Shown here one piece after another: positions 40,506 to 43,054 of a DNA stretch of 64,000 bases. The notes beneath the pieces were generated by a model, which ran no database searches, was not told the DNA's origin, and worked only from the letters and a program-made list of their open reading frames with translations. Source of the stretch: Leptotrichia hofstadii (GTDB lineage: Bacteria > Fusobacteriota > Fusobacteriia > Fusobacteriales > Leptotrichiaceae); assembly GCF_007990525.1 (NCBI RefSeq), contig NZ_AP019823.1, forward strand, positions 1,364,001 through 1,428,000. The letters are read 5' to 3'. Position 1 is the stretch's first letter; each line of letters opens with the position of its first letter. Position numbers and translations under genes: made by a program.

Positions 40506-40543
40506 AATTTAAATAAAATTAAGATATGAAAATGGAGGTCATT

Positions 40544-41077
40544 ATGGATTCTGAAAACAATTTTTTAGATAGGCAAAATAAGAACAGAAATGGAGAAAGC
40601 GGGAATTATTTCAATAATATCGCAGAATTAAACAAAATCAGGGAAGAAGTGGCTGGAAGTTTTGGGCAGGAAAATCAGAATTTCAGAAATTCTAAAAACA
40701 TCCAAAGTAATGAAAAAAATGGTTCAATTAAGCTAACTTTAGATGAAATGACCATCAAGAATATAAAGACAATTGTCTCTATAACAAAATTCCTTTCCGT
40801 TGTAGGTGTTTTCATCGGGATACTGCAGCTATTTGTATTTCTTATTGGGATTTTTACTATTTTTATTTCTTTAAAATTTCTTAATTTTGCTTCAGATCTA
40901 GACGATGCTGTTCAAATGGAAGATGAAAATAAATTAAAAACTTCTTTTAAAGAGCTTGCAGGAGGATTGAAATTTTATATAATCTCATTAATTACTATAT
41001 TTATTTTCGCATTTTTCATTGTTGCTATATCTGCAAGCCTGTATCACTTTTCGGAATATTACTATGATTCGTATTAA
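40544..41077 (+). CDS. DUF5362-like small membrane protein
   Basis: About 177 residues. A hydrophilic N-terminal half rich in Asn, Gln and Ser is followed by a membrane region with helices around FLSVVGVFIGILQLFVFLIGIFTIFISL and FYIISLITIFIFAFFIVAI. The layout ITKFLSVVGVFIG..LKFLNFASDLDDA fits DUF5362. The ATG at 40544 sits five bases after GGAGG; the ATG at 40526 is upstream of that site. Function unknown. It has its own promoter and terminator. Confidence 0.65.
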   Translation: MDSENNFLDRQNKNRNGESGNYFNNIAELNKIREEVAGSFGQENQNFRNSKNIQSNEKNGSIKLTLDEMTIKNIKTIVSITKFLSVVGVFIGILQLFVFLIGIFTIFISLKFLNFASDLDDAVQMEDENKLKTSFKELAGGLKFYIISLITIFIFAFFIVAISASLYHFSEYYYDSY

Positions 41078-41088
41078 AATTAAAAAAC

Positions 41089-41108
41089 AGGGAGATTTTT
41101 TTCTCCCT
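41089..41108. terminator. Bidirectional terminator
   Basis: AGGGAG at 41089-41094 pairs with CTCCCT at 41103-41108, with a T-rich loop and flanking A and T runs, between two convergent genes. Confidence 0.7.
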
Positions 41109-41129: not shown

Positions 41130-42035
41130 TTAAGCACTTGATATTACTACTGTCTTAATTTTCTGTGTTTTATCATAATTCTGTTTCATTATGACTCCCC
41201 ATATCAGATTTACATTCTTATTATTTACAATGCCCGAAATTTTTTCTGTTATCTGTCCAATATCTGATAAAGATACATCATGTCCCGCAGTAAAGTTTAT
41301 AAGAACCTTTCTTGCGTTTTCCAATTTCCCCTCAAAAAGATTATTTTCCATCAGTTGTTCCATTATCTTATCAACTGCATTATCTCCCTTGCCTTCTCCA
41401 ATCCTAATAATAGTATCTTTTGAATTCTGCAGAACAGCCTTTATATCCAATAAATCAATATTCATAAACCCAACTTCCGTAAGAATATTTGCAATACTTT
41501 CAATACCTTCCTTTATAATTTCGTTGACTTTAGCATAAGCTTCTTCAAGCGGTTTTTTTCTATCTATGTGATTATATAATTTTTCGTTAGGAATTACAAT
41601 CAAGCTATCTGTAATTTGCTCAATTTTCTTCATTCCCGCATTTGCAATTTTCAAAGTTTCAAATCCTTCCAGATAAAATGGACGAGCAACAATACTAATA
41701 GTAAAAATACCCAATTTTTTTGCAACTTCAAGAATAATAGGCATTATTCCACTTCCAGTAGCTCCACCAACTCCCGCAACTAAAAATAAAATATCAGTCC
41801 CCTTTAATAGTTCCCGAAATTGATTTTCACACTGGAATGCCACTCTTTCAGCCTGTTCTCTAGTACATTCCTTAACTCCAGTATCCAAAAAAATCTTTTT
41901 CTCCGCTCTACTAAAATTAGAATTCCTGCTATCCGTATCAATCGTTATATACTCAATCTTCCGCACATTTGAAGCTATCATAAAATTAACAAAATTTATC
42001 CCCATCCCGCCAATTCCAATAACTTTTATACTCAT
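41130..42035 (-). CDS. Divergent, short FtsZ/tubulin-family protein
   Basis: A 301-residue FtsZ-like GTPase, shorter than ordinary FtsZ (about 350-400). IKVIGIGGMGINFVNFMI and YITIDTD match the FtsZ N-terminus. The tubulin signature is GVGGATGSG (residues 88-96) rather than GGGTGTG. DSLIVIPNEKL follows. The T7 synergy loop NIDLLDIKAV keeps both catalytic acidic residues (Asp194, Asp197), so GTP hydrolysis in a polymer is feasible. The C-terminus stops after the globular core, lacking the linker and FtsA-binding peptide. The ATG at 42035 has an AAGGA site. It is probably a paralog of the main division FtsZ. Confidence 0.85.
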   Translation of the reverse strand: MSIKVIGIGGMGINFVNFMIASNVRKIEYITIDTDSRNSNFSRAEKKIFLDTGVKECTREQAERVAFQCENQFRELLKGTDILFLVAGVGGATGSGIMPIILEVAKKLGIFTISIVARPFYLEGFETLKIANAGMKKIEQITDSLIVIPNEKLYNHIDRKKPLEEAYAKVNEIIKEGIESIANILTEVGFMNIDLLDIKAVLQNSKDTIIRIGEGKGDNAVDKIMEQLMENNLFEGKLENARKVLINFTAGHDVSLSDIGQITEKISGIVNNKNVNLIWGVIMKQNYDKTQKIKTVVISSA

Positions 42036-42233
42036 TTTATCCTTCATACCAATCCCACTATTGCAAATACAAATTATTGCAAATCTCCCTTCTATTGAAA
42101 ATATTTAATTTTGAAATTAACTTTTTGTTTATAGGTATATTTTAGCAGATTTAAACACTATTTGTCTATTATTTTTAAGAAAATATTTGAATTTTGATTA
42201 TTTTGCCTAATTATTTAATATTAAAATTCATAA

Positions 42234-42520: not shown

Positions 42521-43054
42521 TTAATTTTCTTCATATTTTTGAACTGCTTTCAAAAATCTTTTTTCTTTTATATTTAATGAAATATCATTCTGATTATCTA
42601 TATATGGGTTGTACCAAGATTTTTGCTCAAAATACTCCTTTAACCCAGCTTTTTGAATCCTAAATCCTTTTTCTGCAAAAACCATATTTCTAAGTATTCT
42701 TAAATCTGCTTTTGTATAATTTGATAATGAAGAATCATCTCCGCTGTTTACTTCATTTATTAATTTATGTAAATCCTCTAAGTCTAAAGAATTATTATAA
42801 CTATTATTTCCATTACTTTGACTAACAGTTTGAGAATTGTCATTTGTATTTTCCTTTACAAATTTAGCAACTCCTTTGATTCCCATATAGATACATGTTA
42901 TAACGATAATAATGAATACAACACATCCTGTTATACACTTAGGATTGGTTATAATTCCAAAAATTAATCCTATTCCCAAAAATATTGCTAATATAATAAC
43001 CACAACAATCAAAAATTCCCAAATAGTGGTGCCTGCTACTGTAAAAAAAGCCAT
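42521..43054 (-). CDS. Membrane protein with C-terminal YARHG-like domain
   Basis: A 177-residue protein. Two hydrophobic helices occupy residues 10-62 (FLIVVVIILAIFLGIGLIF and GCVVFIIIVITCIYMGI), followed by an Asn/Ser-rich linker. The C-terminal domain LRILRNMVFAEKGFRIQKA and GLKEYFEQKSWYNPYI matches the YARHG pattern, an extracytoplasmic module thought to bind cell-wall material. AAAGGAA precedes the ATG. A promoter lies at 43127-43155. It is probably cotranscribed with yidD. Confidence 0.75.
   Translation of the reverse strand: MAFFTVAGTTIWEFLIVVVIILAIFLGIGLIFGIITNPKCITGCVVFIIIVITCIYMGIKGVAKFVKENTNDNSQTVSQSNGNNSYNNSLDLEDLHKLINEVNSGDDSSLSNYTKADLRILRNMVFAEKGFRIQKAGLKEYFEQKSWYNPYIDNQNDISLNIKEKRFLKAVQKYEEN

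Follow-up and report, generated by a model that had tools for sequence, protein, structure and literature searches.

Does a short FtsZ-like gene that stands alone among membrane-protein genes encode the main division protein of its genome, the subunit of a separate filament, or a regulator of another FtsZ? We examined this question for a gene, here termed Z2, within a 64,000-nucleotide stretch of the Leptotrichia hofstadii genome (the window). The initial annotation had read Z2 as a stand-alone divergent FtsZ paralog lacking the C-terminal tail, and the features on which it relied, namely the T4 signature GGATGSG, both T7 aspartates, and an end right after the core, can all be read directly from the translation, in which three residues follow the last core strand (Table 1).

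Table 1. Coordinates within the window of Z2, two of its nucleotide-site and interface elements, and the convergent gene
Feature	Position	Strand	Remark
Z2, tailless FtsZ paralog	41130..42035	minus	301 aa, likelier start
T4 region of Z2, FLVAGVGGATGSG	41748..41786	minus	signature differs from GGGTGTG
T7 loop and start of H8 in Z2, GFMNIDLLDIKAVL	41430..41471	minus	N208, D210 and D213 retained
Hairpin with T-runs on both strands	41089..41108		likely two-way terminator shared by the convergent genes
DUF5362 membrane protein gene, convergent with Z2	40526..41077	plus	true start probably the third ATG, 40544, after GGAGG

Z2 is an FtsZ that ends with its core

The longest reading frame of Z2 begins at an upstream ATG at 42047 and would encode 305 aa, and we prefer the second ATG, at 42035, because an AAGGA ribosome-site-like stretch lies directly before it. 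The product matches the Pfam families PF00091 (Tubulin; 99.4 bits against a cut-off of 33, E=4e-28) and PF12327 (FtsZ_C; 48.8 bits against a cut-off of 27, E=9e-13), and its score of 222.5 bits with the FtsZ equivalog model TIGR00065 is below the cut-off of 295.2. The solved structures closest to Z2 are those of FtsZ from B. subtilis, S. aureus, and others (E ~1e-55), with far weaker matches to tubulin-type entries (E ~1e-4). Together with its position in the FtsZ clade (see below), the FtsZ_C domain and these FtsZ-best structural matches distinguish Z2 from CetZ, TubZ, tubulin, and FtsZl1/FtsZl2. An AlphaFold2 model of Z2 (pLDDT 90.2, pTM 0.90) superimposes on FtsZ crystal structures, including that of S. 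aureus FtsZ, with a TM-score of 0.90, and we predict with high confidence that the FtsZ core fold is retained.

All 14 orthologs that we collected terminate 3 to 4 residues after the core and have neither a linker nor a C-terminal peptide, so the absence of the tail is not the result of a frameshift. Nor has a tail been missed, since the stop codon is followed by the hairpin at 41089-41108 and the end of the convergent gene at 41077. A promoter scan at the locus gave no excess over shuffled sequences, and comparison of Z2 with PADLOC gave no defence match. As first annotated, the genes around Z2 do not form a division cluster; by reading frames and Pfam, they encode membrane proteins and transporters. 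The gene directly upstream (42521-43054) encodes a small YARHG-domain membrane protein, which among the neighbourhoods compared is found beside Z2 elsewhere only in G001.

A main FtsZ is encoded elsewhere in the genome

Z2 could itself have been the main division protein had it been the only ftsZ of its genome. The assembly to which the window belongs (G000; 2.60 Mb, 4 contigs, 99.99% complete) encodes a second, conventional FtsZ at C1:2423625, a protein of 382 aa with the canonical GGGTGTG signature and a full tail ending in DFVLPPFFEE, whose gene adjoins ftsQ- and murB-like genes. The tail that Z2 lacks had been described as one for binding FtsA or ZipA. Its absence stands, but that frame may be wrong for this organism. 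No FtsA scored over the cut-off of TIGR01174 in any of the 13 Leptotrichia genomes, or over that of PF02491 in the window's genome, and SepF is present in the latter. For these reasons, the tail of the main FtsZ (FVLPPFFEE) is more likely a ligand of SepF than of FtsA.

Each of the 13 Leptotrichia genomes that we searched, counting that of the window, has an ortholog of Z2; the orthologs of the twelve others share 62-92% identity with the window's Z2. A genome of one sister genus (G078) has an ortholog as well, with 57% identity. Pairwise dN/dS of Z2 within the genus is 0.06-0.27, and the dS values of Z2 and the main ftsZ are for the most part similar. From these values, Z2 is under purifying selection within Leptotrichia and looks vertically inherited. 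The tailed ftsZ beside ftsQ and murB, the purifying selection, and the conservation across 14 genomes virtually eliminate the readings of Z2 as the main division FtsZ, as a pseudogene, or as an artefact of assembly.

Z2 is placed within the Fusobacteriota FtsZ clade

The initial annotation had proposed a tree of FtsZ, tubulin, and CetZ proteins. Our tree was confined to FtsZ sequences, among them outgroups such as E. coli and Bacillus, and it places Z2 within the FtsZ clade of Fusobacteriota (100/100). This placement supports an origin of Z2 by duplication within Fusobacteriota and leaves a transfer from another phylum unsupported. The nearest sequences to Z2 are tailless paralogs from the Fusobacteriota genera g13, g19, and g24 (support 83/95 and 94/93). 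The Z2 branch is very long (1.9-3.3 changes per site), and this grouping may be a case of long-branch attraction; with branches of such length, an origin within Leptotrichiaceae was not rejected (AU p 0.19). The g13, g19, and g24 paralogs (L101-L107) have nearly complete GTP sites. They resemble Z2 in their length of ~314-321 aa, the lack of a tail, and a GGGTGS-type T4, but differ from it in having kept most of the conserved nucleotide-site columns and all of those of T7/H8.

The nucleotide face of Z2 is altered at experimentally tested residues

We compared the 14 Z2 orthologs with an alignment of 44 main FtsZ sequences, using B. subtilis FtsZ numbering. The base-binding residues N25 and N166, as well as E139, are retained in Z2, and T4 is near-normal (G108 to A/S, T111 to S). 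The T7 loop reads NIDLLD, with N208, D210, and D213 present in 14/14 orthologs. Other positions have changed throughout the family: Q48 is absent from all 14 and replaced by R, E, or K, and the T3 residues G70-A71-G72 are lost (G72 in 0/14) in favour of a shorter stretch that reads C-T/S-R in nearly all orthologs. Only one ortholog, that of the sister genus G078, carries a charged residue at position 143 (K); the others have T, N, V, or I, with T in the window's Z2. In S. aureus FtsZ, the R143Q variant neither polymerises nor hydrolyses GTP, R143K and Q48A each reduce GTPase activity about 6-fold, and residues of T7 serve the nucleotide of the neighbouring subunit (PMC8936486).

The claim that Z2 keeps the GTP-binding fold is therefore borne out for the base-binding residues and fails for the T3 loop, Q48, and R/K143, the elements of hydrolysis and filament contact, which are gone in nearly all orthologs. 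In combination, the AlphaFold2 model, its TM-score, and the residue comparison indicate that the fold was kept while the hydrolysis side of the nucleotide face was altered. This loss is one-sided at the experimentally tested residues only and not over all conserved columns, of which Z2 keeps 22/37 on the nucleotide/top face and 4/7 in T7/H8 (Fisher p=1).

Z2 might have left FtsZ biology altogether and use its fold only as, for instance, a nucleotide-sensing scaffold. The great length of its branch and the family-specific C-T/S-R replacement in T3 would fit such a role, which we nevertheless judge highly unlikely, since the abandonment of longitudinal FtsZ-type contacts would not readily account for a T7 triad that is invariant in 14/14 orthologs.

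Additional paralogs have lost more of the GTP site and kept the T7 loop

The same genome encodes two further tailless paralogs, Z3 (325 aa; L003:1435-2412) and Z4 (282 aa; L004:1486-2334), at a locus at ~246.5-249.2 kb on C1. Z3 has EMGEKTG as its T4, carries N166Y, and has lost T3; Z4 has no T4 glycine left and carries N166L. Both have T7 loops of the form NLDF(A/D)D. Z3 shares 88% identity with the main FtsZ over T7/H8, compared with 42% over the nucleotide domain. Z3 keeps 7/7 conserved columns of T7/H8 and 19/37 of the nucleotide/top face (Fisher p 0.03), and Z4 keeps 6/7 and 10/37, respectively (Fisher p 0.006). In these two paralogs, the GTP sites are progressively erased while the T7 loops are intact. 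Z3 and Z4 group together (100/100) within the Leptotrichiaceae main FtsZ, and the tree puts Z2 elsewhere, on its long branch and with a Leptotrichiaceae origin not rejected at the AU value given above.

Several further observations were made on these genes. A ToxN/AbiQ-like gene lies between Z3 and Z4 in G000, G002, G004, G008, and G011. The dS of Z4 between species is 0.08-0.15, compared with 0.32-0.85 for the main ftsZ in the same pairs, and this low value suggests that Z4 has been exchanged between species. G001 carries extra diverged Z3/Z4-like copies (L113:4652-5458, L114:1888-2223, and L081:5498-6322), one of them a fragment with an internal stop; from these copies, Z3/Z4-like paralogs are being gained and are decaying.

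A remote fifth relative of 235 aa (L112:4917-5624) resembles FtsZ in its C-terminal half only (E 7e-8). A separate set of E-values for this group is circular, its model having included a group member. Pfam assigned no family to the G000 copy and FtsZ_C to its G006 homolog. The gene is flanked by those for a WYL regulator and an Mrr-like endonuclease (L112:3831-6602, at ~485 kb on C1 of G000), and the region is possibly a defence-type island. Its copies are nearly identical between several Leptotrichia species and the sister genus G078, a pattern suggestive of horizontal transfer.

A model for Z2 on filaments of the main FtsZ

The initial annotation left open whether Z2 forms a separate filament or regulates the main FtsZ. 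The pattern of residues mildly favours regulation, and our tentative preference, held with somewhat less than even confidence, is that Z2 joins or caps filaments of the main FtsZ through its T7 face. The T7 (bottom) face of Z2 would dock on a main FtsZ subunit, at the face that bears GTP, and would complete the active site of that subunit, while Z2's own nucleotide face would offer a weak and poorly hydrolysed contact. Z2 would then occupy the nucleotide-exposed (minus) end or form a slow spot within mixed filaments, and it could in this way tune ring length, nucleation, or turnover. Growth of FtsZ filaments is believed to take place at the T7-exposing end (PMC8936486), and the combination of an intact T7 face with a crippled nucleotide face would direct Z2 to the minus end. 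Binders of the N-terminal (minus) face are expected to promote nucleation or stabilisation and not inhibition (PMC11938149). The same one-sided erosion, in stronger form, in Z3 and Z4 lends support to the placement of Z2 on the filament; direct docking on the main FtsZ is not assured, because the two proteins share only ~36% identity overall and 39% over the T7/H8 stretch.

The residues that Z2 has lost for self-assembly, and the possible docking face that it has kept, would also suit a soluble, non-polymerising nucleotide-binding regulator that sequesters the main FtsZ or other division proteins as a conditional division inhibitor, and the gene is monocistronic and away from division genes. 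Such a role seems rather improbable to us, as its neighbourhood has no SulA- or MciZ-like regulatory context, and its retention in all species does not require an inhibitor.

The gene pair of Z2 and DUF5362

The DUF5362 gene lies tail-to-tail with Z2 in 10 of the 13 Leptotrichia species. In G002 and G010, the pair is all that is in place of the 14-kb neighbourhood, and this retention where other neighbours differ suggests a functional link between Z2 and DUF5362. The DUF5362 gene is absent from G005 and G007, and the match in G009 was not significant. At a comparable score, it occurs away from Z2 only in G011, as two extra copies. Bound to the main FtsZ as we prefer, Z2 would for want of a tail depend on the main FtsZ or on a partner protein to reach the membrane, and DUF5362 is a candidate for such a partner.

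The pair also bears on the alternative that Z2 builds its own slowly turning-over homofilament, which would act independently of the Z ring in shape or membrane work with DUF5362 as anchor or cargo. The full core fold, the base-binding residues, and the T7 triad are all present for such a filament, DUF5362 stays beside Z2 even in the two species without other shared neighbours, and the paralogous FtsZs of Odinarchaeota do build distinct filaments (PMC12583498). However, R/K143 and the T3 loop, both needed in S. aureus FtsZ for assembly and hydrolysis, are gone from Z2; three species and the sister genus have Z2 without DUF5362 beside it; and the two genes are convergent and not co-transcribed. 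In addition, DUF5362 is fast-evolving, and we reject its apparently conserved N-terminal peptide MEVIM as a Z2-binding motif, since the peptide most likely results from in-frame reading of the GGAGG ribosome site. On balance, we consider a homofilament somewhat unlikely.

Relation to known FtsZ and tubulin systems

Z2 has in common with the main bacterial FtsZ (TIGR00065) the Tubulin and FtsZ_C domains, the full core fold, and N208/D210/D213, and it differs in its altered T4, the lost T3, the loss of R/K143 in 13/14 orthologs, the missing linker and peptide, and its location outside the division cluster. Tailless or short second FtsZs are known, as in Sinorhizobium FtsZ2 and Magnetospirillum FtsZm. 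Like Z2, the second FtsZs of other bacteria lie outside the division cluster and keep the core with no tail. Sinorhizobium FtsZ2 and Magnetospirillum FtsZm, however, have a near-normal GTP site, whereas Z2 is without the hydrolysis residues and is accompanied by more eroded paralogs. Few bacteria have two copies of FtsZ, with the extra one away from the division cluster (PMC9871819). One survey of where FtsZ occurs lists duplicates in other phyla, with Fusobacteria not among them (PMC8178401). In Odinarchaeota, FtsZ1 and FtsZ2 divide the labour, and only one of them takes the SepF route to the membrane (PMC12583498); the archaeal pair stems from an independent and ancient duplication in archaea, while Z2 derives from a Fusobacteriota FtsZ. 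Our searches of the open literature gave no description of FtsZ paralogs in Leptotrichia, with an earlier description elsewhere being possible, and those on tailless FtsZ paralogs and FtsZm gave nothing on the subject. A tailless second FtsZ is already known as a kind, and the series of eroded GTP sites was not found in the literature searched.

Taken together, these data describe an oral bacterium that has, next to a normal FtsZ, one tailless copy that is conserved and altered in its catalytic residues, as well as more degraded copies. They suggest that Leptotrichia modifies its division filaments with proteins derived from FtsZ. To our knowledge, the known binders of FtsZ filament ends (MciZ, SulA, and MinC) are not relatives of FtsZ. 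Gamma-tubulin, by comparison, attaches to the minus end of filaments built by its own family. A bolder proposal, which we regard as decidedly unlikely, is that Z2, Z3, and Z4 have a dedicated task at the minus end of the main FtsZ filament, as caps or as nucleators, and are a convergent bacterial counterpart of gamma-tubulin. Under this proposal, Z3 and Z4 would count as pseudo-GTPase FtsZs. The homology of Z2 to gamma-tubulin is at the superfamily level only, and the minus-end role of Z2 is a proposed one. Leptotrichia genomes contain up to four recognisable FtsZ-family proteins in which the GTP site is lost by degrees and the catalytic T7 loop kept, a natural set of mutants with which to ask on which face of FtsZ capping, nucleation, and treadmilling depend. 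The series also bears on how regulators originate from a filament-forming family, as gamma-tubulin did from tubulin.

Tailless FtsZs were also seen on IMG/VR contigs classed as viral (L123, L125, L136, L145, and L154). These proteins are of ~310 aa and have normal GTP motifs, and the three IMG/VR sequences placed in the tree cluster with actinobacterial FtsZ (100/96).
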